Virus record (IMG/VR): IMGVR_UViG_3300028581_000071
Location: 1 to 47,991 of that record
Direction: 5' to 3' (one strand)
Length of the DNA stretch: 47,991 nt
DNA from: a virus
In this document: positions 10,401 through 47,991 of the stretch, piece by piece
Layout: each line of letters begins with the position of its first letter
How positions within the stretch are numbered: the first letter of the stretch is position 1
The notes under the pieces: generated by a model
What the model was told of the DNA's origin: nothing
The model's database searches: none
What the model saw: only the letters and a program-made list of their open reading frames with translations
Position numbers and translations under genes: made by a program

Positions 10401-13400
10401 TAGAATCTACGTTCGCGGTCAAAAGACTGCTGAATGGAACGGCACGGTCAATGCTTGGGGATTCATCGTTAATCAATCAGACATCCAAGAATTCAATTCC
10501 TTTATAAAGTATACCAAGAATGAAATCGTAAGATACAAGAATAAGTATTGGACTTCATTGACGATCATTGAACCATCTAACGTGTTTGACGAGACTAAAT
10601 GGAAGCGCATAAATTATAGTGATATTCAGCAGGGAATGTTTGCTAACCCAAGCACCCGAGCATATGAAAGCACTCTTTATTACAACGCAGAAAAGGCTAA
10701 TCTAGAAAAGGATGCAGACTTACTTGCATTCTCTTTGATTGGGTATAGACCAAGAGATTATCTCGCACTCATTGACTTGACTAGTACTGCTCAGGTTCAA
10801 GTATACAAGAATCTAATCAAGAACAAAGGTACTCTTAACGCACTAAGTGCATTTAAAGGTGCTAATCTTCCTCAAGGTGGAATTCAATACGACATCTATG
10901 AAAATTGGGCGATCAAGTCCGGTGAGTACGGCGGAGTACTAAATGAAAACTTCGTAGAATTCAGAATCAACCAAACGAGCATGACCGGCGATCCTGCTAT
11001 CGTCAGTTTGACTAACGGTGAAAGCACCGAAGGGGCAATGCAAGAAATTCCTCTTTCTAACCTGTTCAACTACGGTACTGCAATTAGCTCACCTAATATT
11101 CTTAGCACGACTACGCCATATGCGACTCAAGGTCTATACCCAAGCGCAGGTTACGTCAACTTCAATGACGTTAAGATGTCAACATATTTCTATGCAGGGT
11201 TGCCGACAGCAACTAACATCAACGGCACGATCATTCCTATTCAGAATTTCTATGTAGGTGAGTATCTTTGGATGGCAAACTTCAAAGAGAAGTGGGGCGT
11301 CTTTAGATGGAAAACCATCGGACAAGTAACTCAAGTTAGAAATAATCAAAATCAAACTGCTACCGTTACGTTCAGTGCACCGCACGAACTACAAAGACTA
11401 GATCCTATGGCAATCATCAATTTTGCCGCAAACATCGACGGGTACTACATCGTAACAGATATTGTTAATATGAATGAAGTCATCATCAATCTTTCTGTTG
11501 TTGGGGCAAATCAATCTTCTGTACAAGGTAGAGGATTAGGATTTGCGTTTGAATCTCAGCGTGTAGCAACCCCTAGTGAAATCGAAGCACTAGACCTAAC
11601 TGAAAACGAATTCATTAAAAATACGGTTTGGGTTGATGAGAATAACGACGGTGGTTGGGCAGTTTATCGCAAGAGCATCAATTATCAATACGAAGCACAA
11701 TTCCAGATTCCGCAATCGTCTACCTACGGTTCTGCTGTTGCATACACTGATCAAGCAGGGTACTTGATTGGAGATGCTGGAAGTAACGTAGTCTATAGAT
11801 ATTCGTATGATCCGATGAGCAATACCTCACAACTATATCAGACTGTAACTCCATACAGTCCTGCTGTAAGTTCAGGGTTTGGGTCATCTATCGCATATGC
11901 ACAGAACGTTTACGCTATCGCTGCAAATGATCCTACATCAGGTACAAACAAAACTTATGTCTATGTGATCAATGATAGCATTGTTTCAAAATACATGTTG
12001 GAATATCAGCCGCCCATTTCTGGCTCAGTAAATGACATCGCAATGTCTGATGACGCCAACTGGATGTATCTCGGTATTCCTGATTCAGGGGTCGTCTCAG
12101 TTTATCGCAGAGATAACATCCTAATCAACGCCGGCTACCTCACAGTAGGTGAAACTTATACTATCACTACATTAGGCGATACGGATTGGGTAGCTGCCGG
12201 AGCAATCGACAACAAAGTAGGAATTTCATTTATCGCATCGAACAGCGGAAGTGCATTACTTTCCGGCGGAGTCGTATTCGGGACAGCTACTCAGACAACA
12301 TACAAGCTCGCTACTACTATCGACTGCACTGCTCTGGGACTTACTTCAGCTAGTGCATTTGGTCAATCAGTTGCAACAAACTATGACGGTAGTGTGCTTA
12401 CTGTCGGTGCACCTAAGGTTATCTTAAACTCATCAATTGACAATTGGGGAGCAGCTTATATTTACCAAAGAGCAGAACAGAATTTTGAAACACAATCTAC
12501 TAGCATCCTTTATCAGCCACAAACATTCCAGCTAGCGTGGACTCCTACAGATACTAAACAGGTTCTTTCTTCAGTTTCTGTAACTAGTAACTATTTGACA
12601 GTCAACAGTGCTTCTGGGTTATATGAAGGCATGCCAGTCATGTTTACTGGCACCGGCTTCAGTACTAGCGGCATTAGTCCTTACATTACTTACTACATTC
12701 AAGATATTGTCGGAAGCACTATCGCATTGAAGAATTCACGTTCTACTAATACTCCGATTACCCTAACCAACAGTACAGTATCCTGCACAATGTATCCGCA
12801 GGACAGTCAGCTATATGTTTCAGTCAACGGCACTGTTGTTCAAGACGACAACTATGCAGTAGGTGAGAACACGTTCTATTATACCGGTGCTCTGCGAGTA
12901 GGTGATATAGTAAATGTGAGCGGCAATGAATTCTTCATGGTACAAGAAGTGAACTCTGACTACACTGAAAGAAGCGATATCTATTATGGCACATCTGTGG
13001 AAACTACTAGATACGGTTCCGACGTTCTTGTTGGTTCTCCGTACGAGATTGACACTGAAGGTAGAGAAGGCGCGGTTTACAGTTATATCAACGGCGGCGC
13101 TAAGTATGGTGTAGTAATTGGTACTTCACCTTGCAATCTTCTTGGTACACGAACTCTCTTGATCAACGGATATGCAGCATTCTTGCCTGCAGGTAATGCA
13201 ACTACCGTAGCGAATGCAATTAACAATTCTAGAATCACGAACGTAAGAGCAATTGCAACAGCAGACAACAAGATCATTATCCAGCTGGTCGACAATAATC
13301 TAGCAGGGGTCGATGACAAGCTAGTATTGTCTGTGTTTAATAACAGTGTCTTGAACGAATTGGGTATCCAGCTTTACACTAACACTCAAACTATCAAGTG

Positions 13401-16400
13401 TCCGTATGGGTTTGGACCAACTGAGTTTGGCTACAATGTAAAAGCTAATCATACTAACAGCATCGTGGTCTCTGCTCCGGTCGGTACTCGTTATACAGGT
13501 ACTTTCTTTGACTTCACCGATGATGAAAATCTAAACAATGACACCGTGTTTGACAATAATGCAACAAGATTTGTTGACTCGTATCCAAACGCCGGTGCAG
13601 TCTATATGTTTGAGTACCTCTCAAATAACAACGAAAGCGTGTCATCGCCCGGTTCTTGGACATACGCACAGAGCGTCAACGACATCAATACTGATTACGG
13701 CTTTAACCCTCAATATGGTGCAGCACTAGACTTTAATTCAAACGCAGTGATTGTTGGCTCGCCAAACTTCCAGCCAACTACAATCGGCGGTGAAGCTATC
13801 GTCTACTTTAATGCATCTGGCGTAAATGACTGGGCAGTGTACAGACAGAGTTCAGCCGTAGTTGACATCAACCGAATTCAGAACACGCAGTTGTTTGGTG
13901 CAATCACCAATGAAACACTAGTAAATCTTGATTACATCGATCCTCTGCAAAACAAAATTCTTGGTGCAGCACGAGAAAATCTTGATTTCGTGACAGGTGT
14001 AGACCCTGCAACATACAACGTAAGTTACAACACCGAATCGGGTCCTGTATGGGGCGGAGCACATGTCGGTAGACTGTGGTTCGACACATCAAACGTAAGA
14101 TGGGTAAACTATCATCAAAATGACGTTGTATATAACAGTAGCTACTGGGGTGAAGTATTCCCTGGGTCAGATGTTGCGGTATACAGCTGGATCAGTAGCT
14201 TCATTCCTCCACAGAACTATCAGGGTCCGGGCGTACCGTACGATGTCAATCAGTATGTAGTCAACAACGTGATTAATTCATCAAACGTTGTCGTTCCAAT
14301 ATATTACTTCTGGGTACGAAACACTAATGTAATTTTCAGCCAGACCGGCAAGACATTATCTGATTCGGTTGTGCAATCGTATATCGCTAACCCACGCGCA
14401 TCTGGTATTTCTTACATGGCTCCGTTGTTGCCAAACACATTTGGTATTTACAATTCAGGTGCTTACATCAACGCTGACGACAGCGTGTTTCATGTTGGGT
14501 TCTCTAACAGCCAGTCTGAAGATACGATTCATAATGAGTACTCGCTCATTAGAGCAAATTTCCAAGATGACTTCTTGCCCGGCTCCCCTAACATAAACGC
14601 TACTCATGTTGAAGGTGGCATACACGGTGATATTGGACAGCAATACATCTACGGCGCACCGTATTCTCTATACGCTAAGCTGCTCGACTCTCTTGCAGGA
14701 TGCACTCCTTCAGGAACTGTTGTCCCTGACCCATTCTTACCAGCAGCAGTTCAGTCAGGTGTACTGGTACGTCCAAGTCAGAGTTTCTTCTACGAACGAC
14801 TTGAAGCAATCAAAAACTACTTGACTTATGCGAATGATATTATAATCAACTATCCTATCTTTGAATTGAGAGAAGAACTTTCGTTCTTGTTCACTACTGG
14901 TGAATTTTACAATACCCCTGACTACTGGAGTTATGTAGATTGGTGGGCCCCTGGATATAACAGCGGTGTTAAACCTTCTGTACAAGTTTCAGTGTTTGCT
15001 GAATTGTCTACACTGAACGTTGCAGTTGGCACTGTTGCGAGAGTAGTGCAAAATATATCAGGTAGATGGGAAGTCTATATTCAAACTACTGCTGGGGTTT
15101 GGAATAGAATCGGTCTACAAAACGGAACGTTGCAGTTCAAGAATGACCTGTGGAACTATGCAGCAGGCATGTTAGGATGGGATGGCAACTTCTTTGATAC
15201 TAATTCGTTTGACTTGTACCCTAGTGAAGAAACCCGTAGCATCATTCGTGCATTGAACGAACAGATTTATGTCAGCGACTTGTTAATTCACCGAAACAAG
15301 AGTTTGATTCTGCTGTTTGAATACATTCAGGCTGAAACAATCGAGTCTCAGAATTACTTACCTTGGTTAAACAAGACTTCACTCGCTGACGTTTCACACG
15401 TTATCCGAGAGTTGCTTCCTTACGAAGTCTATAAGACAGACGATCAAACATTCTTATCTGGCTATGTCAATGAAACAAAGCCATATCATGTTGTAATTAA
15501 AGACTTCTTATTCAAATACACTAAGACAGATGTTTTTGAAGGTGACGTTACAGACTTTGACGTACCGGCGGCATACAATTCAACTGACCAGCAGTTTATC
15601 TCACCTCAGTTGGTATACACGATTGACACTAGCGGAATTTACGAGTATAATGCACAGGATCCGATCTGGCAAACAAATGCTTACTCGCAGTGGTTCCAGA
15701 ATTTCGGGCTATCAGTAACCGGTCAGCCCGGGTTCCCGATCACGACGCTAAACTCATTCTTGACTCGCTCGACTAGATACATTCTAGTAGATAACGCACA
15801 CGGTTTCCCGGCTAACGGGGTGATTACTATTGGAACAGAACAGATCGGCTATTCATACGTTGACCGCTCTCTAAATATTGTCGGTGGACTAGCTAGAGGT
15901 ATAAATCAAACTACACCAGTTGATCACATTCCGGGCGAGCAAATCTTTATTGATCTCCCTGCTGTCATTCTACTTGATAGCGGTAGAGGCTATACTAATC
16001 CTCCTAAGGTAACCGCAGTAATTGACACTACGAAGTACCCTGTCCCAAGAGAATTGGCAGTGTTTGAGGCAGTGTTAGGCACAGATTCAGTAGTACAAAT
16101 CAATGTAGTTAATCCGGGTAGCGGATATGCTGTTCTTCCAACTCTAGAAATTGAACCAGCACTTACTGTTTACTTCAGTAATACGGATATCAATTCAAGA
16201 TTTAACACTATCAATATATATGCACCTGATCTAAGAACAGGTGATCTTGTTCGATATAGAGCAGGTATCGGTGCAGGAGCAGGTAGACTTGCAGACGGAC
16301 AGTGGTATTACATCAACGTTCTAGAAAGCACAACTATTTCTGTGATCGGGTTGTATTCTACTTACAGCAACGCTATCAACGACCAAGATAGAATCGCATT

Positions 16401-19400
16401 GTTCGACAATGGAACAGCGACCGGAATGTCATTGAATCTGGGGGCAAAGGCTTCTATCATTACTTCCTCTGCTCCAATCAGAGAAAATATCATCACTCTT
16501 AAGTTCGACCGTACTACCTACGGCTCAAAGATTGTGGATTGGCAAGCCGATTCATTCTACGGTGCTTACTTTGCAGGAAGCTACTACAGCGTTGATACTA
16601 CTGCCTCAAGCTCCGGTGTCTCGCTAGAAAGCACACACCCAGATATCAACACGTTGCTTGCATCTGCTGATGGCGCAACGTTTGAAATCACTGACGTACA
16701 AAATCAAGAAACACTCACTTGGTCTTCTTTGGTTAGAAACGTAGAAGAAACCATTAATGAAGGGTCAGGCTTCCCCGATGCGGACAGATACCTTATCAGA
16801 CTTGTGCTATCAGATAGCACCGAACCAAACGCTTCAGGATCAACGATCGGTTTCTATGTAGGAATGCCAATCAAATTTACAGGTGGCTTAGCTGGAACCG
16901 GTATTACGTCTGGAACAACATATTATGTCGCAAAAATAATTAACGAAACGGATTTCTCTATCGAAGATGCAAATGGTACGGTTATTGCATTGAACAGTAT
17001 CACAATAGAGGTTCCTGTGCTTTGCTACACAGGACAAGTAGTCGATACTGCAATCGTAAGCGTGAACTATCCTGGAATTCTAACTGCGACAGCTACTAGC
17101 GAAAGCAACAATGCAATCACTGTCCCTCTTACTGCTCTTGGCACAGGTGGTACCAATGGATTCTATCCTGGCTTGACTGTATTCTTTACAGGTACAGACG
17201 CTCAGTTCGCTGCTTTCGAGAACAAGATCATTGCAAACGAAGTGTATTACATCAATACTATCATCGATCAGCAGACCTTCACTATTTCCGAGTTCAAAAA
17301 TCCTACATTCACTAATGTATTGCAGAATATTGCAGACACGACACTAGTACTGCCAATAACTGCTACAGTGACCGAAACTATTGGAGCAAGTGATATTGTT
17401 GTACTAGACTCTAACGCAAACTTCAACTTCAACGATCCGGTAATCTTCAACACAATGGTAATTGCTGGTAGCGAAGTATCAACCTTTGGTAACATTGTTT
17501 CCGGCACTGTATATTATGTAAGCGAAGTAGTTGACGGTAGTCCAACACAAATTAAAATCTCTGAAACTAAAAGCGGCGTTAACTTTGATCTCAGCACAGT
17601 AGCAGCAGCCACTGATACTAGTGCAGTTGCAACTAACCAAAGCAACGTGATACCGCTAGCGGATGCTACCGGTGAGCTAACGATGAACGTAGCTCTTCCA
17701 GTAAGTCCGGGTCAAGTTAACGGTCAACAATTCAAGTTCTACCAGACTTCAGGGCAATACACCGATAAGTCAGGTGCAATTAGCAATCTAATTGAGACTA
17801 TTGTTTATGCTACTATTGCAGCGCCAGTGAACAAGGTTGCAGTTGAATCAACTACTAACTTCTATACTAACTTGCCGGTTCAGTTTGAAGTAGCAACTGG
17901 GAACCTATCTACCGGAACAACTTACTACGTGTTAGATTATTCTGGCAAGTCTGCAGGAGGCTCTACTTTACCAAATCTAGAAGTGCAAGTACAGCAAACA
18001 CTAAGCGCTGGAAACCAACTAATTTGCTACACTGGGACAGACACGAGTGATCTATACTTGAACATGCCAATAACGTTCTCTGGTACAGGATTGGGCGGGT
18101 TAATTATCAGTGATCAATACTTTATAAAGAGCATCGTTAACAGCACCACATTCACTGTATCTGAATTACCAGGCGGAACCACTACTACTCTGTCAGATGA
18201 TGCAGGCTTCATGGTTGGTACTGGTTATCCCTACATCACTGTCTCGGCATCTCCGGGAAGCTCACCTGTATCGCTAATAACATCCACAACTGCATCAGCA
18301 TTAGATCAGGTTAATCTCACAAACCCAACGTTTGATATCTCATATATCTTAGGTGGCTACAGAGCTATCATCGATAACGGCGGGTCTGGTTTTGCAATTA
18401 ACAACGTGATCACAATCAGCGGAACAGAAGTTGATGGTCTGTCACCCAAGAACGACATCATCATCACAGTCAGTGAGATTGATGCCAACGGTGTGATAAC
18501 TAGAGTTTCTCCTGCAGGGCAACCGCCTAACCTTGAGCTATCTTACTACCTAAAGGTTATTTCTGCTACTCAATTTGAAGTTTACGAAAATTCGTTAATG
18601 ACAATTCCAGTAAGTGGAAATACTTTCCCTTATGAGGGGTTAACATCGACTACTGCTACGGCTGCTTCCAACGATAGAATTACTGTTGGTGATTCATCTG
18701 TCTTCGATTTAAATGATGCAGTAGTCTTTAGTGGTGATATTTTTGCATCAGAAATTGTATTAGGTCAAACATACTACATCAAGTCTTTGCCTACTTCGAC
18801 TACAGTAACATTGTCGGCTGTTCCTGCTGGCACAACACTCAACATATCAACTGACACATCTGGTTCAATGACGATGGCTAAGCCAGGTAGCTTTGCTTAT
18901 CTGCCTCAACCGTTCTTCTTCCAACCATCTATCATCAGATACAACAACAGACTATATGAATGCTTGGTATCAAACAATGATCCAGAGTTCATCTTTGGTA
19001 AGTGGCAGTTGGTCGACCCTGGTTCTCGTAATATAAACGCTATGGATAGAGTCATCGGTTACTATCAACCAACTGCAAACATGCCGGGCGTTGATCTGAC
19101 ACAGTTGTTTGAAGGTGTTTCTTATCCGAACCCAATCTATTATGGTAATGCGTTCGAGCCTTCAAAGCAATTTGAAGTAGACACGAATTTGCAAGATCAA
19201 CCGTTCGATGAGGTTCTTCCTTCGACGTACACCGTCCAGGGCGCAGATTTCCCATACGGGTACGCACCCGAAGAACTAGTTGCCGGCAATGTGCGTGATA
19301 GTATAGCTATCACTGTTACTACACGCCCCGGTACAAACTGGGATGCAGCAGAATATGCTAACGTGGGCTATAGCGTAGTTTCACTTGAAATTGTTCCAGA

Positions 19401-22400
19401 GTCACAGACACAAACTGCTTACAGCTTTGATCGTGTTGTTCAGGTTCCCGCACAAGTTGCAGTTCAGGTTCTGAGTGCGACTACTGGGTTAGGAACTACC
19501 CTGTCACCTACTGAATATACGGTTGACTGGGTAAACAAGACTATTACTCTCGACAACCCAATTTCATTCACTCCTTCTCTAGAAACATTAAGAATCGATG
19601 TGTATGAAGTAGGTAACGGTGACCAGCTAGTTAAGTCAAGCACTCATAATGATCCGATCAGAACCAACTCCAATACCGGATTCAATGAAATTTACTTGAA
19701 CTGCAACTACAGCGATAGCATATTCAACGGCGGCGGCGTGATTCAACCGGGCTCATTTGATGTCGTGGTGACTGCGGTAGCCACTAGCAGCGTAACAAAT
19801 GAGATTACGTGCGACGACGCATCAAAGTTTTCGATTGGTGAAGCCATAACATTTACCGGTACCTTGTTTGGAAACATTCAGCCTAATACTACATACTACA
19901 TTAAGTCAGTGAGTAATATTACTGAATCAATTACTGTTTCACTATCATATGATCCTATCACTGGCATTGCAGGACCAACTGCACTACTGACAACTGATAC
20001 CGGAACAATGTACATCAACCTAACATATGGTTCTGATGTTCCTTGGACTGCACCTTACGTGATGCATAACGGTACTCTACTAGTAGAGGGGCGGTCAAGT
20101 CAAGTCACCGGTACTTCGGCATCAACAAACGCAATCATTACCAACTCAACTGCTGGTATGACTGTAGGGATGCCGGTAACATTTAGTGACACGATGTTTG
20201 GTAATGTAGTTGAACCGATGACAAGATATTATGTAACATCAATCATTGACAGCACGAACTTCACTATCTCTACTTCACCTAGCGGACCTAACTTGACATT
20301 GACTGATGCGACCGGAGGTGCATATTACATCACCAACGACTTTGCTTTCGGACTACAGCCGAACAATATTCAAGCAACGTTGATTTTTGCAACAGACAGC
20401 TACACTAATGATAATGACTATCTCTGCTATTCTGTGTTTGGTGAAGGCTCACCTATCACATACGGATACACTATCCCGCAAAGACAAGAGTTTGTAGCCA
20501 ACGGAACAGAAGTTTCGTTTGTGTTGTCTAACTTTGTAGGAGAAGACAATCCAATCAACGCGGTTGTAGAAATTGATGGAGTAAGACAGAACTCGTCTGC
20601 ATACAATATTAGCTTTGTAACAAACAGCGTAACGTTCTTTGCGGTCCCGGCAGCAAACTCAATCGTTTCTGTCACTAGCTATAACAAAACGGGACGGCAG
20701 TATTTGAATACTCAGTATGGTATTTCGGGTAACATCGGTAGTGCGTTTGCTACATTCACAGTGGGCACAACGACTAATACAAGCGGGACATGGGACCAAG
20801 ATGATCCTGATGTTCAGTCTTGGGACCAAGACTCTCCTTCGGTAGTGTCGTGGGATGAACAAGAGAGCTGGTTGAGCCTGTCTTCGGGCTCAACCGGGGT
20901 GCTTACGGTCAACGATCCTATCATCTTTGATGCTCCTACTATCGGCGGAATAGTTGCAGGACAAACTTACTATGTGATTGAAATCCTCGATAGTACTGAT
21001 TTCGTAATCTCAACTACACCAGGAGGAACTGCGTTCCAGTTGACCAACGATAGCGGTGCAATGACTGCTAACGCTAACGCATTGATTGTAGCAGAAATTA
21101 CCAATGTCAACAACAATATCACTCCTCCTTTAGCGACTACGCTTGCTACTGCTACAGATGGCGGCACCGATGAAATTACAGTTACAAGCACAGCTGGATT
21201 TATTGCAGGGGCAACTGTAGAATTTAGGGGTACTGCTTTCGGAGGGGTTGCAACTGATGGAACTGTTTATTTTGTAAACTCTGTTGTTGACGGTACTCAC
21301 TTTACGATTGAGGATGCTGACGGAGACATAGTTCCGCTATCTACGGCTACCGGAACCATAGAAGTGACCGTCGGTGGGCAATCTGCGGTACGTGTAACCA
21401 CTGCAATTCAAACAGGATTCACTACTAATACACTTGTAAGAATCGATGGTGTTGAGGGTTCAACTCAATTGAATAACAATACCTACTATGTGCGAGTGAT
21501 CAATAATTACACATTCGACCTATATAATCAGCCTTACACGGCTGATCTAAACGGAGTTAACTATCCGGTAACTACGGTATCCAATTATGTATCCGGTGGC
21601 TTCATCTGGAGACAGGGTTCATTCTATCTTGTTAACACGTATGCTACTGCAACATCGGTTACTGGTCAGATCACGGTAAACTCAACTGCAGGACTAGTCT
21701 ACGGGACACCTGTCTACTTCACACAGTCTGGAAACCAGAACGGCGACAACTTGATGGGCGGCCTCATTCAGGGCACTGAGTATTATGTTCGTGACTTCAT
21801 TGTCGGTGGAGCGATCACGGTTTCATCAACTAGAGGGGGTCCGGCAACCGCCCTGACAAATGACACTGGCTACATCAACGTCACTCAGTGGCAACAGACT
21901 AACGTAGACCGTCTATGGGTAACTATAAACGGCTATAGAGTTCCGTCATCTAAGCTCAAGCTGAATGACGTAAATGAGGTTAGCATCCTGTCTTCAATCA
22001 ATCCAGGGGATATTGTCATCATCACTAGCATGATGCCTTCTGCTACTCCAGATCAACAAGTTTACTTGAATTTAGTAGATTATGCAGGTAATCCAGCAGT
22101 GTATTCTGCAAATGACGAGACTAGAACTTGGTTGACCCGTACGTTAGGTATTCTAGATACTGTAATGTATGTAGGGGATGTTACATCATTGACCCAACAA
22201 GTTGTTCAAAACGTTACTGCACCTATAGCAGTTGCCGGTTACTACAACATTGGTTTAGACTCGGATAAGAGAACATTAACCGGAGTAACGGTTTATAATA
22301 ATACTACTGGTCAAAATATCAGTAACGATTATATAAGCATCATCTTAGTTGACGCTGCGCCGATTTTAAAAATTGCTTCAGGTTCTTGGATCGCTGCAGG

Positions 22401-22698
22401 TAATTCTCTGACAATAACTTCACTTGAAGGTAACACCGTTTATGTCAACGGAGAGCTAATACGATTCAGTAACGTAGACTTCTCGGCTAATACGTTGAGT
22501 GGCCTAGAGCGAGGGGCAGACGGCACCGGAGCACAATTAATAATTCCTGAATATACCGATGTAATAGGACTTTTGGGCATCAATAGAATGAGTGATATTG
22601 ACTATAATTTAGTCTGGAACTCGTATGTTTATAACCCAATAGACGGTGATCCTTTGCAAATCAGCCAAACGGTTCCGGCTGAATTCTTAAATACGTGA
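4426..22698 (+). CDS. Giant virion structural protein / adhesin (6,090 residues), in the gene 7 position
   Basis: One uninterrupted frame of 18.3 kb encodes 6,090 residues. The N-terminus (FLPEVFQTPPNAQFLAATLD near residue 10, then a GVNATDAYVTEPTKTR segment) resembles the start of large structural proteins placed after gp6 in marine T4-like phages; T4 has gene 7, a 1,032-residue wedge protein, here. Residues about 1200-2250 look like a conserved core rich in Trp and Tyr. Residues 2432-3130 hold FG-GAP-like repeats (YGSAVAY, FGSSIAY, FGQSVAT, YGAALDF, each followed by a GAP or GSP-type turn). About 13 beta-rich modules with a YY(V/I) core recur, mostly at residues 4120-5820. A second motif (G..Y.I..LG.T.W) occurs near residues 722 and 2572. 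The C-terminus has a GLERGADGTGA turn. The likely role is a baseplate-anchored fibre or adhesin; the gp7 equivalence is by position only. Confidence 0.85.
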   Translation: MARVRTLNFLPEVFQTPPNAQFLAATLDQLVNPPSVANIQGYVGSTFGTGVNATDAYVTEPTKTRADYQLDPSVVFTKPNESAATDFITYPGIIDALKMEGGITENNDRLFTSQFYSWDSFTNLDALINFNQYYWLPEGPPSVQVAASTVFSREAFVVTDNTNTYSIVREGSTRSNTNPAITLLRGGTYTFEVDQTSPFWIQGAPGVSGNSPTQPNQSVRDVYGVTNNGATSGLVTFEVPQRNAQDEYIFPTTVNTDVISTSSFDDINGQFVNSFEGIDGITSLLGLRVAFYNTPQPIAYISSYFDEVEYDTNAPDLVAPITLTVDSCDPSAFTLASGSTSGLIVGGTLTFTGASFGGINIGQVYFIQSIPNSTSFTISTALNGDPITLTAASGTMTVNVNQGLYEDGFNVNVGNTFFVVTYIGDPNDPIIRLIPDGAIPSDTRILPVYGTEWNNRPFYLNDSNNLELIPYISAPLDVLYYQDGTNPNKVGIIRLIEDNLNNTINVDTQILGRTNYTSPNGVVFTNGLKVSFNGDVIPTSYLTGEYYVQGVGTSIDLVPVETLVVPEDFSEGEYNAWDILDWDIGNWDISLDIPVQADYITIARNSINKNAWARSNRWFHIDVITATATYNDDPTIVTTYANISHKAARPIIEFYPNLKLFNSGAVGKDPVDFIDTTNTDALSTVPGSLAYYPDIEVYSTTNAATVTSVSGSPINDESFVAGRYYEIAVLGTTNWNTVAGTTGVTYAVGNVVLCVSPGTGTGTAYQVSTTVTVPVSSITGTLAQYMFVGDQKNYLPTNSQINSLSSDGTNYTLVVTWPVAIAVTGGTTTLVASDTTVNNYSLFPGARVIFAADNDVNVRNKIYVSNFSVVAPSTQPVITLIVAEDGIVAPDTQTVVTRGFANAGLSYWFDGIDWMQSQQKTQLNQAPEFDILDGNGISFSDPVVYPSTTFTGCKLFNYTLGSGAKDPVLGFPIRYSSVSNLGDVSFDVSLNSDTFSYVYGGNPFNQKVNTGYVYNITSDVSYTRLLGWETAIAPSQQYQIFNFDFSLTAPAYIFKCDIAALPALQPDETGWPRVKVYINNVYQEPSDYSVEIGTNTTTIQLFTQIDENTLVQVLLLSDQVSKVGYYQVPLNLSNNPLNTDITTVNTGDIRTQYQDIFINAPNTTGTIFGSNNFRDCGNLNPYGTKIIQNSASLVLPGTFLRNPQYNLFNALQFNSREYVKYKQLLVDTVQKTPYEQRYTPAEILDEALDQITAAKSEINAFFWSDMLPNKSSYISNSYIFNNDLDRSQYPLSHVYNFETANYNGVLVYISRAVDNIIVEKQLLIGTEYVVSTDSPTLTITIPMQDGDIVTIREYNQTYGSYVPNTPTKLGIYPKYIPQVILDSNYLIPTYFILGHDGSYTKLYGDYIPQADILVDFRDQALLEFEKRVYNNLKLSTETPITRYEVVPGFFRDPTYSWDEFLRIYSTQFLNWIGQNRIDYKTQYFSRVNEFTYNYTNSTSKLDNSPILQGYWRGVYEYYYDTTTPDTTPWEMLGFTIMPTWWTARYGPAPYTSDNGILWDDLEQGLIWNNGAPYINPLVARPGLTTIIPVNSNGDLLSPFKVIVSNYNPSTFNKDWVVGDDGPAELSYRRSSTFPFDLARIFALTRPAEFYNLCVDLDNYKYNAEFNQYLFNDRSHLVPSNIEVYGNGTPKTSYINWIVDYEKQQGIDATTEITTTLDNLDVRLVYRLAGYSDKSMLQFYVEKPTPSSTNASLLIPDESYSILLYDNQPFDRLLFSGVIIQQNQDYWTVYGNSQNIAYFEILDPAFNGNFTTLSLEKQTVQVAVNYTTDISFVPYGTKFYTPQDVAQFLLSYGKYLESKGMMFNDVQNGIPITWTQMVYEFLYWIQTGWSNGSVITLNPAATTLDVNQPSALVQPLTIQQQNFVLNQNLYPIRLNDLCVNRDDTLFHMHTLNSGDTMAYAQFNFSNFEHGIVFDNTTLFNDIIYNLTTGLRQNRIYVRGQKTAEWNGTVNAWGFIVNQSDIQEFNSFIKYTKNEIVRYKNKYWTSLTIIEPSNVFDETKWKRINYSDIQQGMFANPSTRAYESTLYYNAEKANLEKDADLLAFSLIGYRPRDYLALIDLTSTAQVQVYKNLIKNKGTLNALSAFKGANLPQGGIQYDIYENWAIKSGEYGGVLNENFVEFRINQTSMTGDPAIVSLTNGESTEGAMQEIPLSNLFNYGTAISSPNILSTTTPYATQGLYPSAGYVNFNDVKMSTYFYAGLPTATNINGTIIPIQNFYVGEYLWMANFKEKWGVFRWKTIGQVTQVRNNQNQTATVTFSAPHELQRLDPMAIINFAANIDGYYIVTDIVNMNEVIINLSVVGANQSSVQGRGLGFAFESQRVATPSEIEALDLTENEFIKNTVWVDENNDGGWAVYRKSINYQYEAQFQIPQSSTYGSAVAYTDQAGYLIGDAGSNVVYRYSYDPMSNTSQLYQTVTPYSPAVSSGFGSSIAYAQNVYAIAANDPTSGTNKTYVYVINDSIVSKYMLEYQPPISGSVNDIAMSDDANWMYLGIPDSGVVSVYRRDNILINAGYLTVGETYTITTLGDTDWVAAGAIDNKVGISFIASNSGSALLSGGVVFGTATQTTYKLATTIDCTALGLTSASAFGQSVATNYDGSVLTVGAPKVILNSSIDNWGAAYIYQRAEQNFETQSTSILYQPQTFQLAWTPTDTKQVLSSVSVTSNYLTVNSASGLYEGMPVMFTGTGFSTSGISPYITYYIQDIVGSTIALKNSRSTNTPITLTNSTVSCTMYPQDSQLYVSVNGTVVQDDNYAVGENTFYYTGALRVGDIVNVSGNEFFMVQEVNSDYTERSDIYYGTSVETTRYGSDVLVGSPYEIDTEGREGAVYSYINGGAKYGVVIGTSPCNLLGTRTLLINGYAAFLPAGNATTVANAINNSRITNVRAIATADNKIIIQLVDNNLAGVDDKLVLSVFNNSVLNELGIQLYTNTQTIKCPYGFGPTEFGYNVKANHTNSIVVSAPVGTRYTGTFFDFTDDENLNNDTVFDNNATRFVDSYPNAGAVYMFEYLSNNNESVSSPGSWTYAQSVNDINTDYGFNPQYGAALDFNSNAVIVGSPNFQPTTIGGEAIVYFNASGVNDWAVYRQSSAVVDINRIQNTQLFGAITNETLVNLDYIDPLQNKILGAARENLDFVTGVDPATYNVSYNTESGPVWGGAHVGRLWFDTSNVRWVNYHQNDVVYNSSYWGEVFPGSDVAVYSWISSFIPPQNYQGPGVPYDVNQYVVNNVINSSNVVVPIYYFWVRNTNVIFSQTGKTLSDSVVQSYIANPRASGISYMAPLLPNTFGIYNSGAYINADDSVFHVGFSNSQSEDTIHNEYSLIRANFQDDFLPGSPNINATHVEGGIHGDIGQQYIYGAPYSLYAKLLDSLAGCTPSGTVVPDPFLPAAVQSGVLVRPSQSFFYERLEAIKNYLTYANDIIINYPIFELREELSFLFTTGEFYNTPDYWSYVDWWAPGYNSGVKPSVQVSVFAELSTLNVAVGTVARVVQNISGRWEVYIQTTAGVWNRIGLQNGTLQFKNDLWNYAAGMLGWDGNFFDTNSFDLYPSEETRSIIRALNEQIYVSDLLIHRNKSLILLFEYIQAETIESQNYLPWLNKTSLADVSHVIRELLPYEVYKTDDQTFLSGYVNETKPYHVVIKDFLFKYTKTDVFEGDVTDFDVPAAYNSTDQQFISPQLVYTIDTSGIYEYNAQDPIWQTNAYSQWFQNFGLSVTGQPGFPITTLNSFLTRSTRYILVDNAHGFPANGVITIGTEQIGYSYVDRSLNIVGGLARGINQTTPVDHIPGEQIFIDLPAVILLDSGRGYTNPPKVTAVIDTTKYPVPRELAVFEAVLGTDSVVQINVVNPGSGYAVLPTLEIEPALTVYFSNTDINSRFNTINIYAPDLRTGDLVRYRAGIGAGAGRLADGQWYYINVLESTTISVIGLYSTYSNAINDQDRIALFDNGTATGMSLNLGAKASIITSSAPIRENIITLKFDRTTYGSKIVDWQADSFYGAYFAGSYYSVDTTASSSGVSLESTHPDINTLLASADGATFEITDVQNQETLTWSSLVRNVEETINEGSGFPDADRYLIRLVLSDSTEPNASGSTIGFYVGMPIKFTGGLAGTGITSGTTYYVAKIINETDFSIEDANGTVIALNSITIEVPVLCYTGQVVDTAIVSVNYPGILTATATSESNNAITVPLTALGTGGTNGFYPGLTVFFTGTDAQFAAFENKIIANEVYYINTIIDQQTFTISEFKNPTFTNVLQNIADTTLVLPITATVTETIGASDIVVLDSNANFNFNDPVIFNTMVIAGSEVSTFGNIVSGTVYYVSEVVDGSPTQIKISETKSGVNFDLSTVAAATDTSAVATNQSNVIPLADATGELTMNVALPVSPGQVNGQQFKFYQTSGQYTDKSGAISNLIETIVYATIAAPVNKVAVESTTNFYTNLPVQFEVATGNLSTGTTYYVLDYSGKSAGGSTLPNLEVQVQQTLSAGNQLICYTGTDTSDLYLNMPITFSGTGLGGLIISDQYFIKSIVNSTTFTVSELPGGTTTTLSDDAGFMVGTGYPYITVSASPGSSPVSLITSTTASALDQVNLTNPTFDISYILGGYRAIIDNGGSGFAINNVITISGTEVDGLSPKNDIIITVSEIDANGVITRVSPAGQPPNLELSYYLKVISATQFEVYENSLMTIPVSGNTFPYEGLTSTTATAASNDRITVGDSSVFDLNDAVVFSGDIFASEIVLGQTYYIKSLPTSTTVTLSAVPAGTTLNISTDTSGSMTMAKPGSFAYLPQPFFFQPSIIRYNNRLYECLVSNNDPEFIFGKWQLVDPGSRNINAMDRVIGYYQPTANMPGVDLTQLFEGVSYPNPIYYGNAFEPSKQFEVDTNLQDQPFDEVLPSTYTVQGADFPYGYAPEELVAGNVRDSIAITVTTRPGTNWDAAEYANVGYSVVSLEIVPESQTQTAYSFDRVVQVPAQVAVQVLSATTGLGTTLSPTEYTVDWVNKTITLDNPISFTPSLETLRIDVYEVGNGDQLVKSSTHNDPIRTNSNTGFNEIYLNCNYSDSIFNGGGVIQPGSFDVVVTAVATSSVTNEITCDDASKFSIGEAITFTGTLFGNIQPNTTYYIKSVSNITESITVSLSYDPITGIAGPTALLTTDTGTMYINLTYGSDVPWTAPYVMHNGTLLVEGRSSQVTGTSASTNAIITNSTAGMTVGMPVTFSDTMFGNVVEPMTRYYVTSIIDSTNFTISTSPSGPNLTLTDATGGAYYITNDFAFGLQPNNIQATLIFATDSYTNDNDYLCYSVFGEGSPITYGYTIPQRQEFVANGTEVSFVLSNFVGEDNPINAVVEIDGVRQNSSAYNISFVTNSVTFFAVPAANSIVSVTSYNKTGRQYLNTQYGISGNIGSAFATFTVGTTTNTSGTWDQDDPDVQSWDQDSPSVVSWDEQESWLSLSSGSTGVLTVNDPIIFDAPTIGGIVAGQTYYVIEILDSTDFVISTTPGGTAFQLTNDSGAMTANANALIVAEITNVNNNITPPLATTLATATDGGTDEITVTSTAGFIAGATVEFRGTAFGGVATDGTVYFVNSVVDGTHFTIEDADGDIVPLSTATGTIEVTVGGQSAVRVTTAIQTGFTTNTLVRIDGVEGSTQLNNNTYYVRVINNYTFDLYNQPYTADLNGVNYPVTTVSNYVSGGFIWRQGSFYLVNTYATATSVTGQITVNSTAGLVYGTPVYFTQSGNQNGDNLMGGLIQGTEYYVRDFIVGGAITVSSTRGGPATALTNDTGYINVTQWQQTNVDRLWVTINGYRVPSSKLKLNDVNEVSILSSINPGDIVIITSMMPSATPDQQVYLNLVDYAGNPAVYSANDETRTWLTRTLGILDTVMYVGDVTSLTQQVVQNVTAPIAVAGYYNIGLDSDKRTLTGVTVYNNTTGQNISNDYISIILVDAAPILKIASGSWIAAGNSLTITSLEGNTVYVNGELIRFSNVDFSANTLSGLERGADGTGAQLIIPEYTDVIGLLGINRMSDIDYNLVWNSYVYNPIDGDPLQISQTVPAEFLNT
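11719..13830 (+). repeat. FG-GAP / integrin-like propeller repeats inside the giant protein
   Basis: At residues about 2432-3130 of the giant protein, (Y/F)G.(A/S)(V/I)A-type strands recur, each followed by a hydrophobic strand ending in a GAP, GSP or SAP-like turn: VLTVGAP, VLVGSP, VVSAPVG and VIVGSP are visible. Each is followed by a strand such as AAYIYQ, AVYSY, AVYMF or AIVYF. This alternation is typical of seven-bladed FG-GAP beta-propellers. The blades are interrupted by at least one inserted module. The calcium-binding DxDxDG loops of classic integrins are not obvious. Confidence 0.6.
16800..21880 (+). repeat. Array of about 11 divergent beta-rich modules (60-80 residues each)
   Basis: In the C-terminal third of the giant protein a module recurs with this order: an ITV..ST.GF strand, a G.PV.F.GT.FGG turn, a TYY(V/I).SI..ST.FTIS core, and a GG..(L/I)TLT..(T/S)G.M closing strand. 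I count copies starting near bases 16800, 17090, 17360, 17810, 18000, 18640, 19765, 20100, 20870, 21140 and 21640. Two outlying copies lie near 5395 and 12577. The copies are diverged at DNA level, so this is an old protein-level expansion. Confidence 0.75.
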
Positions 22699-32451: not shown

Positions 32452-33891
32452 ATGTCCCTGCTCAACATAAACCATCGTAAAGCAAAAGTGGGAACTTTTG
32501 ACAACTACCAACAACATTTACAGAATACAAAAGCCGAACTAGATGAGGTAAGTTCTAGCTTTTGCGCGGCAAAATGGAAGCAGGTTACCATGCATCTTCA
32601 GAATGGCATGAATCATAGCTGTCACCATCCAAAGACCCACGTAGTACCAGTAGAAGAAATCAAACGAAATCCTACAGCACTTCATAATAGTGAATATAAA
32701 AAGCAACAGAGAAAAATGATGCTTGAAGGAGAGCGACCGGCTGAGTGTGATTATTGTTGGAAAGTAGAAGACGATGGTAATGGTGCATTGAGTGATCGTG
32801 TTTATAAGAGTGCAGATAGCTGGGCAGCTCCACACATCCAAGACATTGCTGCTAAGCCATGGGATGATAACGTTGATCCTAGCTATGTAGAAGTAAGTTT
32901 TAGTAACGTATGTAACTTTAAGTGTAGCTATTGTGCTCCGCACATCAGTAGCAAGTGGATGGAAGAGATTGAAAAATTCGGACCGTATCCCACAAGCACT
33001 CAATTTAATAATTTAGGATGGCTTAAACAAGAAGGCATGATGCCTATTCCGAACCGAGAAGAAAACCCATACGTTGATGCGTTTTGGGAATGGTGGCCAA
33101 GGATGTATGGCAGTTTACAGCATTTCCGTATTACAGGTGGCGAACCGTTACTTAGTAAAGATACCTTTAAGGTATTGGATTACATCATCGATAATCCTAA
33201 TCCCAATCTTGAAGTTAGTATCAATAGTAATATGAATCCACCCGCTGCAATTTTCAATAAATTTTTAGAAAAAGTAAAGATTATCATTGATGAAAAAAAG
33301 GTTAAGAAATTCAAAATGTTTACTAGTGCAGAGGCGCACGGTAAACAGTGTGACTACATAAGATTCGGCATGAACTACGACATGTGGTTGACAAACATTC
33401 GTCGCATGTACAAAGAAATTCCAGAAATAGATTTCACTGTCATGAGTACATATAACATTCTTAGCCTTACTACGTATAATAAATTTTTGGATGACGTTCT
33501 TGAAATCAAACGAGAATTTGGAAGACATGACAGCGAAAGAAACCCTATGTTGTTAGACATTCCTTATTTACGTTATCCAGATCATCAAGCAGTGTTCATG
33601 CTTGAACCGGAAATGTTACACCTGATATACGATCAAGTAACTCACATGTATCGTAACTTAGAGTACAAAGGATGGTATGGCACTGCTAATAGAGGCTTCT
33701 ATGAGCATGAAGCCGATAAGTTAAAGCGTATATATAACATCATGAAAAATAATCAACACAATGAATTCACTAATGTAAACAGAAAGAACTTTGTTGCTTT
33801 TGTTGATGAGCATGATCGTAGGCGCGGAACCAATTTCCTAGAAACATTCCCTGAACTTGAAGATATGTATAATAGATGGAAGAGATTATAA
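32452..33891 (+). CDS. Radical SAM enzyme with N-terminal cysteine region (twitch type)
   Basis: The radical SAM cluster motif C154-x3-C158-x2-C161 lies in VSFSNVCNFKCSYC, followed by the SAM-binding RITGGEPLLS segment. Before it, the N-terminal 110 residues hold four more cysteines: C38, C57 (NHSCHHP), and C99/C102 (ECDYCW). Such an extra cysteine region is known from twitch-type radical SAM proteins of T4-like phages, where it may hold an auxiliary Fe-S cluster. At 479 residues it has the usual length. It follows the glycosyltransferase-like genes by four bases and precedes the ISGE genes, so a role in making or altering a sugar or peptide modification is plausible. The substrate is unknown. 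Confidence 0.88.
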   Translation: MSLLNINHRKAKVGTFDNYQQHLQNTKAELDEVSSSFCAAKWKQVTMHLQNGMNHSCHHPKTHVVPVEEIKRNPTALHNSEYKKQQRKMMLEGERPAECDYCWKVEDDGNGALSDRVYKSADSWAAPHIQDIAAKPWDDNVDPSYVEVSFSNVCNFKCSYCAPHISSKWMEEIEKFGPYPTSTQFNNLGWLKQEGMMPIPNREENPYVDAFWEWWPRMYGSLQHFRITGGEPLLSKDTFKVLDYIIDNPNPNLEVSINSNMNPPAAIFNKFLEKVKIIIDEKKVKKFKMFTSAEAHGKQCDYIRFGMNYDMWLTNIRRMYKEIPEIDFTVMSTYNILSLTTYNKFLDDVLEIKREFGRHDSERNPMLLDIPYLRYPDHQAVFMLEPEMLHLIYDQVTHMYRNLEYKGWYGTANRGFYEHEADKLKRIYNIMKNNQHNEFTNVNRKNFVAFVDEHDRRRGTNFLETFPELEDMYNRWKRL

Positions 33892-34827: not shown

Positions 34828-35502
34828 ATGATTGAAATTTTTTTATCCGGAGAGTTCAGAACCGGAACCAAATGTGCAGAAAATTGGAAAAAAATACCAA
34901 ACGCAAATATAACACTCTGTGTTGATTCAGCGAGCGTTGACATGGCAAGGTCAGCGTACCCAAATGCCAATGTAGTAGGGTTGGATTGGAAGTTTTACCC
35001 TACTAATAATAATACAAACAAAATATATTATCGTTGGCAGTATTATGCTGCAACGATGAGATTTTCAGACGATCAACTAGTGTTAGTATCTCGACCTGAT
35101 TTATATATTACCGACATCAGTCCGCTTATTCAGCAAATACAGCTTAGTGATGATAAAGTAATGATTAACTATGATGATCAAGTACAAAGTGCCAATGACA
35201 TCATGTTTGTTGTACCGTTTGGTATTTTTAAACGAATTGTAAATGAATACAGCGAATTTTCGGACTTCACTTCGGCGTTTAAATCACATGAATACCTGTA
35301 TTATATTGCAAAGAAATTTGATGCCGTTTTAGCTCCTTATCATGGAAGACTTTATAGGCCCAACATTCCGGATAACGTTGAGATTAACATTCAAACTTTG
35401 ATGTACTATGATCATCTTTACGATAGACGCCGGCGCCTGTTGCTTAAATACCACAGTTTACCTAATGCCACTCAGCTTCTGGGAACAGTTTCACCGTTTT
35501 GA
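34828..35502 (+). CDS. ISGE-family glycosyltransferase-like protein B (224 residues)
   Basis: ATG 34828 follows an AGGAAGAGAG site by about seven bases; an in-frame TTG at 34801 is not preferred. The protein begins EIFLSGEFRTGTKCAENWKK and shows LVLVSRPDLYITD at residues 84-96, the same two landmarks as its upstream neighbour (ISGEYRT and IRPDIYF). It is shorter and ends in an Arg-rich helix (YDRRRRLLLKYH). Its last 41 bases overlap the 3' end of the convergent dehydrogenase gene. The pair probably arose by duplication followed by wide divergence. The function is probably sugar transfer, not proven. Confidence 0.6.
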   Translation: MIEIFLSGEFRTGTKCAENWKKIPNANITLCVDSASVDMARSAYPNANVVGLDWKFYPTNNNTNKIYYRWQYYAATMRFSDDQLVLVSRPDLYITDISPLIQQIQLSDDKVMINYDDQVQSANDIMFVVPFGIFKRIVNEYSEFSDFTSAFKSHEYLYYIAKKFDAVLAPYHGRLYRPNIPDNVEINIQTLMYYDHLYDRRRRLLLKYHSLPNATQLLGTVSPF

Positions 35503-36124
35503 ATTCAACATTGCTATTGCTTAGTATAAAAAGAATCAACTCTGAAATCTGGTTTGGATCAATAGCATCTCCAACGTCTCCGATCGGGTAAGGGTTTGAT
35601 TCATTCCACAATGAAGTGTTAATTCCGCCGGGGTGTATGCTTACTACTTTAATTTTACGACTACGCAACTCTTTGCCAAGTACGCCGGCAAATGCAGTTA
35701 ACGCATATTTTGACGCACAATAGACAGATTGATTCTCTAATTCTCCTAACCCAGCAACTGAGTTAATGAAGATTATCTTACTATCAGCATTCATTACCGG
35801 TAAGCATATCTTTGTAACATACATAGTGCCTTTAACATTGGTGTCAATGATTTTGCTTATAGACTCCATTTGAGAATCACCAAACGAACACATTTCAAAT
35901 ACAGCAGCATTGTTTACTAGTAAATCAATTTGACTGACTTGCGATATCATACTAGCAACAGCTTCATGGTCAGTTATGTCACCGCGAAAGTGTTGGTAGT
36001 TAACATGTACGATATTTGAATTACCACGTGCTAGCCCATATACTTGCCAGCCTCTTTCTAGTAGAGTTAATGCAATGTCTTTTCCTAATCCGCGACTAGT
36101 ACCAGTTACTACAGCAGTTTTCAT
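35462..36124 (-). CDS. Short-chain dehydrogenase/reductase (SDR)
   Basis: All classical SDR landmarks are present in 220 residues: the cofactor loop TGTSRGLG at 7-14, NNAA at 71-74, catalytic Ser122 (INSVAG) and the Tyr135-x3-Lys139 pair (YCASK), then HPGGINT after the sixth strand. Arg11 and the absence of an acidic residue after strand two suggest NADPH rather than NADH. It is the last gene of the four-gene minus-strand operon and overlaps the cyclase gene by four bases (ATGA). In a cyclitol pathway it would reduce or oxidise a ring carbonyl; this role is inferred from neighbours. Its 3' end overlaps the opposite-strand gene by 41 bases. Confidence 0.85.
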   Translation of the reverse strand: MKTAVVTGTSRGLGKDIALTLLERGWQVYGLARGNSNIVHVNYQHFRGDITDHEAVASMISQVSQIDLLVNNAAVFEMCSFGDSQMESISKIIDTNVKGTMYVTKICLPVMNADSKIIFINSVAGLGELENQSVYCASKYALTAFAGVLGKELRSRKIKVVSIHPGGINTSLWNESNPYPIGDVGDAIDPNQISELILFILSNSNVEFKTVKLFPEAEWH

Positions 36125-45278: not shown

Positions 45279-45297
45279 TAAAGTGGTTCCACCACGC

Positions 45298-45315
45298 TGT
45301 TGGTATCAGTATTAA
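45298..45315 (+). pseudogene. Remnant copy of the secreted protein's 3' end (CWYQY-stop)
   Basis: The 18 bases encode C-W-Y-Q-Y-stop, as at the end of the secreted protein (45044-45061). The copies differ at three third-codon positions or stop bases only (TGC/TGT, TAC/TAT, TAG/TAA). The frame upstream is open for just 13 codons (from 45274) before a stop. It looks like the tail of a duplicated gene whose body was lost or replaced by the small gene at 45078. Confidence 0.45.
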
Positions 45316-45390
45316 AGAATTAAAGAATTAGTTGTTGACGTAGACTGAAAAACGGGCAAGACGGGAGTGCGATTCTCCCCGCCTCCACCA
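45316..45390 (+). ncRNA. ssrA: tmRNA acceptor piece (T arm and CCA end)
   Basis: GGGAG (45363-45367) and CTCCC (45375-45379) form a 5-bp T stem around the 7-base loop TGCGATT, followed at once by the 7-base acceptor strand CGCCTCC and ACCA, ending at 45390. The 5' end of this piece is not fixed by the sequence; I place it just after the CWYQY remnant. The long P2 helix with the coding piece could not be resolved by eye. Confidence 0.85.
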
Positions 45391-45525
45391 TAAAGAAATT
45401 TCATGATTATTTGTATATGTCGTGACATAAGAGAGTCTCACTTTAGTAATCGTGAGGACCTAGTCAAAAGGGTCCTCGAAGAAGATTATTGTTGTGGCTC
45501 TTGTTTAAAAGAGTTTCTTTATGAT
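45391..45525 (+). other. tmRNA intervening segment with closing stem and hairpin
   Basis: A 9-bp perfect stem joins its ends: ATAAAGAAA (45390-45398) with TTTCTTTAT (45514-45522). It extends the acceptor stem, as expected for a permuted precursor. Inside is a 7-bp hairpin, GAGGACC (45454-45460) with GGTCCTC (45471-45477). The segment would be cut out during maturation. It also carries most of the ferredoxin-like frame at 45403. Confidence 0.75.
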
Positions 45526-45576
45526 GGGGGCGACCAGTATCGATTGACGTATAATAGGAAAGCCGAGACTGATTGA
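45403..45576 (+). CDS. Bfd-like [2Fe-2S] protein frame inside the tmRNA gene (57 residues)
   Basis: The frame starts at ATG 45403 in the intervening segment and ends at TGA 45574-45576, 51 bases into the tmRNA coding piece. The protein reads MIICICRDIRES near the start and DYCCGSCLKEF at 28-38. Cys4, Cys6, Cys31 and Cys34 give the C-x-C ... C-x2-C layout of bacterioferritin-associated ferredoxin, though the spacing between the pairs is 24 residues rather than about 31 in E. coli Bfd. The 5' signal is weak (AAAGAAAT). Two helices between the cysteine pairs fit the Bfd fold. The last 17 codons are also tmRNA sequence. It may be a real gene sharing DNA with the RNA, or a lucky open frame. Confidence 0.55.
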   Translation: MIICICRDIRESHFSNREDLVKRVLEEDYCCGSCLKEFLYDGGDQYRLTYNRKAETD

Positions 45577-45690
45577 CTGGCAAAGTGCCAAAAAACGTAA
45601 ACGCAGCGAACGATAACACTGCATTTGAATTAGCCCTAGCGGCATAATTCATTGGGTATGAGTTCCACCTAGAAACAGAACGGGCTCACT
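45526..45690 (+). ncRNA. ssrA: tmRNA coding piece with tag reading frame
   Basis: The piece starts with GGGGGCGA, followed by a D-loop-like segment ending TTGACG. A 5-bp hairpin TGGCA/TGCCA (45578-45590) lies just before the tag, in the position of the first pseudoknot. The tag frame 45603-45647 is GCA GCG AAC GAT AAC ... GCG GCA TAA. After the stop, CCTAGAAACAGAACGGGCT (45668-45686) resembles the conserved 3' part of two-piece coding RNAs. The 3' end is approximate. Confidence 0.85.
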
Positions 45691-46745: not shown

Positions 46746-47991
46746 ATGGACATTTCTGAACTAAAAGACTTTAAGCTATCAGACGCTGTTGTGTTTCACG
46801 ACGAACTTAATCCTAACCTTTGGAACGGTACACGCCTTGATCCTAAGGTTAGAACGCAGTTGATGCTGATAGCAGAAGACTTCATCACTACTCTGGGAAT
46901 CAGTGACCTTCACGTTAAAGACATTACAGTCTCTGGGTCCAATGCAGCATATTCATATACCCCGCACAGTGACTTAGACTTGCATATCCTAATCGATATG
47001 GATAAGCTACAGAACAATGAAGTGTATCGTGAATTGTTCACTGCAAAGAAAACCCTATATAATGATCAGCACAATGTCTCTATCCGCGGCGTTCCTGTAG
47101 AAGTCTACGTACAAGACACTAATGAACCCGTCAACTCATTGGGTGAATACAGTGTCGTGAATGATAAATGGATAAGGATTCCTAAAAAACAACGTGCTAA
47201 CTTCGATCAGGCTGCTACCAAAGCCAAATATGAAAGCCTATCTAACCTCATTGATCTAGCTATAAAGACCGCTGATCTTGACCGCGTTAAAAAACTGATT
47301 GATATGATTAGGCGTTATCGTAAAGCAGGTCTTTCAAAGGGCGGAGAGTTCTCCCCTGAAAATCTAGCGTACAAAGCAGTTAGAAGTCAGGGAGCCATCG
47401 ACGCACTCTATGACCTACGTGACACTCTGCACGGTGAAGAATTGAGCATTGACGAAGCAGCCTCTCGTGAAGATGCGATCATCAGGATCAACAAGATTAA
47501 GAACACAGCCGGTAGGACTGAAAATGAGATTGAGATGATCAATGGTATCATTGAAAAGTTGATGAAGCAATACAACATCAGACCGGAAGAACTAAAAATG
47601 TCGTCGGGGATTTCGACAAGGAACTATCCAAATCGTGAACCTGTCGATCCGCTTAAAGCGAAGATGGTAAAAGCAGCGTATGAGAAGCAGCAAGCGGCCG
47701 ACGCATTAAAGAGAGAATGGCAACGGTTCAAGAGCGGATTCTTTATAGAGGACGCAAAACTTGATGAAGCATACACTACCAAGCAGCAGGTTATCGATCA
47801 CTTTGTTAGTAAGGCAAGAAAAAGAGGTGAAAATGTCGACCTAGCGAGGAGAAAAGGTGCAGGGGCTTGGGAGCGCGGCTGGAGAGGCCCAGAATCCAAC
47901 AAACCGAAAGAACCCAAAAAACCGAAAGAGATCAAGCCCTACGACCCTGAACGCTACAAGAATGTTCGCCTGCCTTACCGTGACGACGATG
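46746..47991 (+). CDS. Nucleotidyltransferase-fold protein, 3' end outside window
   Basis: The frame is open from ATG 46746 to the last base (415 codons plus one base). The N-terminal domain has VFHDELNPNLWNGTRLDPKV at 16-35, and a minimal nucleotidyltransferase motif: Gly64-Ser65 (VSGSNAAYSYTPHSDLDLHI) with Asp76 and Asp78 as the metal pair. This order (FHDELNP.LW, then GSNA.Y....SDLDLH) recurs in large proteins of T4-like marine phages. From about residue 150 the protein becomes helical and basic, ending with a Lys/Pro-rich stretch near the window end. It may transfer nucleotides to RNA or protein; the target is unknown. Confidence 0.82.
   Translation, partial: MDISELKDFKLSDAVVFHDELNPNLWNGTRLDPKVRTQLMLIAEDFITTLGISDLHVKDITVSGSNAAYSYTPHSDLDLHILIDMDKLQNNEVYRELFTAKKTLYNDQHNVSIRGVPVEVYVQDTNEPVNSLGEYSVVNDKWIRIPKKQRANFDQAATKAKYESLSNLIDLAIKTADLDRVKKLIDMIRRYRKAGLSKGGEFSPENLAYKAVRSQGAIDALYDLRDTLHGEELSIDEAASREDAIIRINKIKNTAGRTENEIEMINGIIEKLMKQYNIRPEELKMSSGISTRNYPNREPVDPLKAKMVKAAYEKQQAADALKREWQRFKSGFFIEDAKLDEAYTTKQQVIDHFVSKARKRGENVDLARRKGAGAWERGWRGPESNKPKEPKKPKEIKPYDPERYKNVRLPYRDDD

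Follow-up and report, generated by a model that had tools for sequence, protein, structure and literature searches.

What does a phage keep between the two halves of a split tmRNA gene? The question is raised by a locus in a 47,991-nucleotide stretch of viral DNA (IMG/VR record IMGVR_UViG_3300028581_000071, positions 1–47,991; hereafter the window, meaning the whole stretch analysed). A first-pass annotation, made from the letters alone, had read the locus as a circularly permuted two-piece tmRNA, with the acceptor half upstream of the half carrying the tag, and had proposed a covariance-model search as the check. A cmscan of the whole window returned just two matches at or above the gathering threshold, both at this locus and both covering their models in full: RF04321 (tmRNA_permuted) at 45330–45647 on the plus strand (85.5 bits, gathering score 47, E = 4.5e-15, model positions 1–213) and RF01849 (alpha_tmRNA) at 45283–45690 (58.3 bits, gathering score 50, E = 1.2e-13, model positions 1–355). 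ARAGORN made no call for a permuted tmRNA at 45330–45690. The circularly permuted two-piece tmRNA is confirmed, with its halves in the order first proposed.

The Rfam alignments and a direct reading of the plus strand delimit its parts. The acceptor piece (45330–45390) contains a T arm, GGGAG-TGCGATT-CTCCC (45363–45379), the acceptor 3' strand CGCCTCC (45380–45386), and A73 followed by an encoded CCA (45387–45390, with A73 at 45387). An intervening sequence (IVS, or spacer) of 135 nt (45391–45525) separates the CCA from the acceptor 5' strand, and its excision during maturation is predicted from known permuted tmRNAs. The coding piece (45526–45690) comprises the acceptor 5' strand GGGGGCG (45526–45532), the resume and tag region, and a 3' domain extending to about 45690, which the RF01849 match reaches. 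The two acceptor strands, 139 nt apart and in reversed order, pair over 7 bp including G3-U70, as the first reading had it (7 bp, about 140 bases), and the alanine identity elements G3-U70 and A73 are both present. The claimed ClpXP-type end signal also held: the tag frame at 45603–45647 reads AANDNTAFELALAA followed by a stop, and CGCCTCCACCA has a chance expectation of 0.03 occurrences in the window. Neither the window nor any of 14 phage records, related or ORF-bearing, yielded an SmpB gene, so the tmRNA would need SmpB from the host. From 45600 to 45690, the tag and 3' half diverge from those of the nearest same-spacer relative, L002 (AANDNTAFELALAA versus ANDNNAYEDFALAA), more than the remainder does, and resemble the 3' remnant of another phage locus, L010, described below, which suggests recombination within the coding half.

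The window comes from a T4-like, contractile-tailed jumbo phage. Its 1128-residue baseplate wedge protein (phrog_10646) is ~32% identical to those of two related isolates, Agrobacterium phage Atu_ph07 and Sinorhizobium phage Phosso. These nearest isolates by baseplate protein, together with the alpha_tmRNA match, bear out the alphaproteobacterial connection claimed at first. The locus had also been called remarkable for a T4-like phage; a T4-like jumbo phage does carry such an RNA, but the surprise is smaller than supposed, since phage cases are published. A permuted two-piece tmRNA is described in Methylophilales phage Melnitz, in a study that counts 53 putative two-piece tmRNAs among the phage genomes screened (PMC9004378), and the available portion of the report on Sinorhizobium jumbo phage AP-J-162 mentions a tmRNA, its form unstated (PMC11242549). 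The permuted tmRNA of the window is therefore not new in itself.

Phosso (469 kb) has an unannotated permuted tmRNA, as do three further isolates of alphaproteobacterial phages, DSS3P8, RcXuper and RcRudolph; Atu_ph07 gave no match to the permuted tmRNA models. The spacers of the four isolates measure about 98 to 410 nt (106–410 nt in Phosso, DSS3P8 and RcXuper) and hold no convincing ORF. The RcRudolph tmRNA is covered by an annotated hypothetical protein. Among 15 viral loci retrieved through the protein encoded downstream of the tmRNA (46746–47990), 11, including one on a contig of 361 kb, have a permuted tmRNA in the same place, and four do not. A marine relative (L206) has a glutamine riboswitch upstream of its permuted tmRNA, a further similarity to the tmRNAs of Melnitz and the pelagimyophages. 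Elsewhere in the window, a 6090-residue ORF (4426–22698) adjoins the baseplate genes, and in Atu_ph07 the baseplate wedge gene has a very long virion structural gene as its neighbour; the window also encodes a radical-SAM-like protein, weakly matched (phrog_14086, 32452–33891), and a FabG/epimerase-like protein (phrog_3142, 35462–36124).

The spacer of the window holds a nested ORF of 57 codons on the plus strand (45403–45576; MIICICRDIRESHFSNREDLVKRVLEEDYCCGSCLKEFLYDGGDQYRLTYNRKAETD), which starts in the IVS and stops 51 nt inside the tmRNA coding piece. Its start lies directly after the 5' arm of the stem predicted to close the IVS (UAAAGAAAUUUC, 45391–45402), an arm that doubles as the ORF's weak ribosome-binding region (AAAGAAA). 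The 3' arm, GAGUUUCUUUA plus UGAU (45511–45525), lies directly before the predicted RNase P site. The frame is open in 2.7% of shuffles. Compared with L002, the ORF shows 10 nucleotide differences, eight of them synonymous and the other two changing F to Y and V to I; the excess of synonymous changes has a p value of about 2e-4 (5e-5 to 1e-3 depending on the assumed transition bias), and dN/dS for the pair is 0.05. The coding case for the window rests on this one sequence pair, since L002 is the only relative that carries the ORF. This apparently conserved, protein-coding spacer ORF, overlapping the tmRNA coding half, is the unusual part of the locus.

The putative product matches no family profile, and Pfam gave no match at E values up to 10. 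It has four cysteines in a CxC ... CxxC arrangement (MIICIC...CGSC), the pattern of Bfd-type ferredoxins, which it resembles in this motif. Free-standing BFD-like proteins occur in two large phages with related tmRNAs, and their pairwise similarity to the product is weak (for one of them, E = 4e-4, 30% identity over 43 positions). Membership of the Bfd-type [2Fe-2S] ferredoxins (PF04324) was rejected, as no Fer2_BFD profile match appeared in the ORF or the window at E values up to 10. A PDB sequence search returned chance matches only, and the AlphaFold model is of low confidence (pLDDT 57). A small iron-sulphur or zinc protein would be our guess.

A wider view came from viral contigs, in which pattern scans and a structural extractor identified 174 distinct permuted tmRNA loci. 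The extractor demanded U70 and a 5' GGG in all 174, so the conservation of these features among the loci is no test. RF04321 scored above its cut-off in all 50 phage records searched following the pattern scans, and at 76–136 bits on fifteen representative ORF-bearing loci. Plausible tags were read in 168 of the 174 loci, 118 of them ending in ALAA. Viral spacers hold small protein genes, structured RNA, or just 10–20 nt. Spacers of at least 100 nt were scored as filled when an ORF started in the first 26 nt and spanned the spacer. By this measure, 22 of 32 were filled in the set found by the acceptor pattern, which is blind to IVS content (5.1 expected; over spacers of all lengths in this set, IVS median 75, maximum 224 nt), and 30 of 34 in the set found by, and thus selected on, the 3' arm pattern TTTCTTTATGATGGG itself (1.0 expected from dinucleotide shuffles).

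Across the 174 loci, 50 IVS-filling ORFs are preceded by a Shine-Dalgarno (SD) sequence, and these fall into 28 families. In 42 of the 50, the stop lies within the IVS, in 28 cases exactly one nucleotide before the predicted cut. The commonest spacer form reads TAAGGAAGTTT(A)ATG ... GTT TCT TTA TGA T and then the coding half: the 5' arm contains the SD, and the 3' arm encodes Val-Ser-Leu and a stop codon that ends one nucleotide short of the predicted RNase P site. In nine cargo families, dN/dS is mostly 0.05–0.35, the exceptions being very close pairs of one family (near 0.9, from few changes) and the divergent members of another (0.4–0.7); where testable, the IVS ORFs are thus mostly under purifying selection. 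Their products include a thioredoxin (PF00085, 4e-21), which many phage thioredoxins match, all at less than 60% identity, a DUF6356 protein (4e-11), and many proteins with no assigned family. Searches with blastn and tblastn, using several loci and cargo proteins, found no ORF-bearing spacer in isolated phages.

The arms of the closing stem are matched to each other within loci. For IVS of at least 60 nt, 97% have arms that pair over at least 7 contiguous bp, versus 26% after arms are swapped between loci, and in predicted precursor folds the SD and start region are buried with a probability near 1. Bacterial permuted tmRNAs of the alphaproteobacterial type (RF01849) resemble the RNA of the window in the order of the halves, the G3-U70 acceptor stem and an ANDN-type tag, but differ in the spacer. 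Applied to bacterial genomes, the same acceptor pattern as in the viral census recovered 105 tmRNAs with IVS of 4–71 nt (median 27), none filled by an ORF, compared with 135 nt and an ORF in the window; this control is essentially alphaproteobacterial, by record title, while the phages found by the 3' arm pattern have tags like betaproteobacterial ones. In 249 bacterial genomes, surveyed at phylum level, no strong RF04321 match was longer than about 330 nt. Twenty such loci were fetched, and the extractor recovered 10 of them, the longest one not included, all with IVS of at most 68 nt; long spacers may still occur, rarely, in bacteria. The bacterial spacers are often a short hairpin ending in TTTTGAT, like the phage closing stem, and phage IVS are longer; it seems, then, that phages enlarged the loop of a hairpin that was already there.

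The history of the spacer contents differs from that of the tmRNA bodies. The spacers of L179 and L111 are 99% identical and their bodies 65–72%; for L166 and L171 the values are 91% and 63–73%, and for L010 and L046, 89% and 67–85%. With the L126/L122/L132 group added, such mosaics span 79–99% identity in spacers and 63–85% in bodies. Conversely, L002 and L003 have bodies that are 98–99% identical, and the spacer is a 135-nt ORF cassette in the former versus 14 nt in the latter, which indicates that the whole cassette was acquired or lost in a single piece. IVS contents have been exchanged between divergent bodies. A related structured RNA of roughly 60 nt fills the spacers of divergent phage tmRNAs in L007, L010 and L046 (L007 being similar by eye); the structured spacers of L010 and Phosso match no Rfam family.

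Taken as a whole, the locus is read as a phage permuted tmRNA with a protein gene in its IVS, and as one instance of a recurrent slot in the loop of the closing hairpin that accepts exchangeable cargo; we put the probability of this reading at about 0.78. How such a slot might work can be sketched from the geometry. The precursor would be transcribed as one RNA, in the order acceptor half, nested gene, coding half, and would be cut by RNase P at 45525/45526, with further 3' processing after the CCA. The start region is buried once the hairpin is complete, so ribosomes would have to load on the nested ORF co-transcriptionally, before the 3' arm exists, and would then hold the hairpin open. Its later closure would hide the SD, release both tmRNA pieces, and switch off or release the nested message. 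We infer this order, translation before maturation, from the geometry. Together with SmpB from the host, the mature tmRNA would serve in ribosome rescue. The nested stop of the window is located past the cut; the IVS, once processed, would therefore lack a stop codon, and the same tmRNA could tag the product of this non-stop message for degradation. The fullest version of the proposal is that the excised spacer is a dedicated, interchangeable slot, that nested expression and tmRNA maturation are mutually exclusive, and that the window's protein, being made from a non-stop substrate of its own tmRNA, would accumulate only until the tmRNA matures or once rescue capacity runs out. This version is speculative, and we consider it rather unlikely.

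The reading that best survives beside the preferred one is that tmRNA and nested gene are plain overlapping genes with no regulatory coupling, the ORF being translated from unprocessed or separate transcripts. This is a serious contender, if somewhat short of an even chance, and the tie between translation and maturation is indeed an inferred one. It sits less easily with a start region that is itself part of the closing stem, and with the 28 stops placed exactly one nucleotide before the predicted cut, a regularity that shared arm sequence alone could also explain.

Alternatively, the IVS ORFs may be selfish, the spacer offering a safe harbour to small mobile genes, which RNA processing would remove, with no benefit to the phage and no link to tmRNA regulation. 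The presence of cassettes in divergent tmRNA bodies would fit, and so would L010, where a GIY-YIG/NUMOD3-like ORF of 256 codons lies within the tmRNA coding half. The permuted tmRNA of L010 (3575–4679) has a split coding half, arranged as the resume region, a different tag (ending in EMAA) with a 3' end, the 256-codon ORF, and a remnant of the original tag with its 3' end; the ORF is on the minus strand, its motifs were recognized by eye, and it has no significant Pfam match. The insertion resembles an element that has taken the tag's place. Against the selfish reading, none of the tested cargo significantly matches homing endonucleases or transposases, one cargo is an ordinary thioredoxin, and the mosaics are explained by homologous recombination across the tmRNA halves; we think it rather improbable.

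That the RNA is an ordinary permuted phage tmRNA, whose spacer in the window is a structured, noncoding IVS with a frame open by chance, is the least probable account: the weak SD, the 2.7% open-frame chance, the overlap with the coding half, the lack of a family match, the low-confidence structure model and the several viral IVS that are structured and ORF-less all lean towards it, but eight of the 10 changes from L002 are synonymous (p about 2e-4), and in many other phages the ORFs that occupy this slot are under purifying selection.

The preferred reading, a recurrent cargo slot in the tmRNA spacer, can be set against several known systems. The Melnitz and pelagimyophage tmRNAs are likewise phage-encoded, permuted and of alphaproteobacterial type; the available portion of that report describes no spacer protein gene, and the window comes instead from a jumbo phage whose relatives are Atu_ph07 and Phosso (PMC9004378). 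Some tmRNA genes carry a group I intron, a few of them with a homing endonuclease gene (PMC11915505). These too have a protein gene inside a tmRNA gene, but there it sits in a self-splicing intron of the T loop, whereas the gene in the window occupies a spacer predicted to be processed out, closed by a simple stem and holding varied cargo in phages. In one metagenome-assembled genome, the intervening sequence of a permuted tmRNA contains a tRNA-Ala, an arrangement termed unique (PMC11915505); this is again an extra gene in the spacer, but an RNA gene and a single case. The regulation of arfA resembles the proposal for the window in that a stop-less message yields a product controlled by tmRNA, although arfA is unrelated to the window ORF and is not nested in a tmRNA gene. 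The open-access literature yielded no protein gene in a tmRNA spacer; the original two-piece tmRNA papers lay outside this search, and priority is not proven.

On the reading preferred here, a structural RNA gene also serves, in many phages of alphaproteobacteria and probably betaproteobacteria, to carry protein genes. Dozens of unannotated small phage proteins are thereby exposed, in tmRNA genes that the standard caller often misses. The arrangement also offers a testable link between ribosome rescue and the expression of an embedded gene, and it reopens the question of what makes phages retain a tmRNA: its use as a rescue RNA, as a gene platform, or both.
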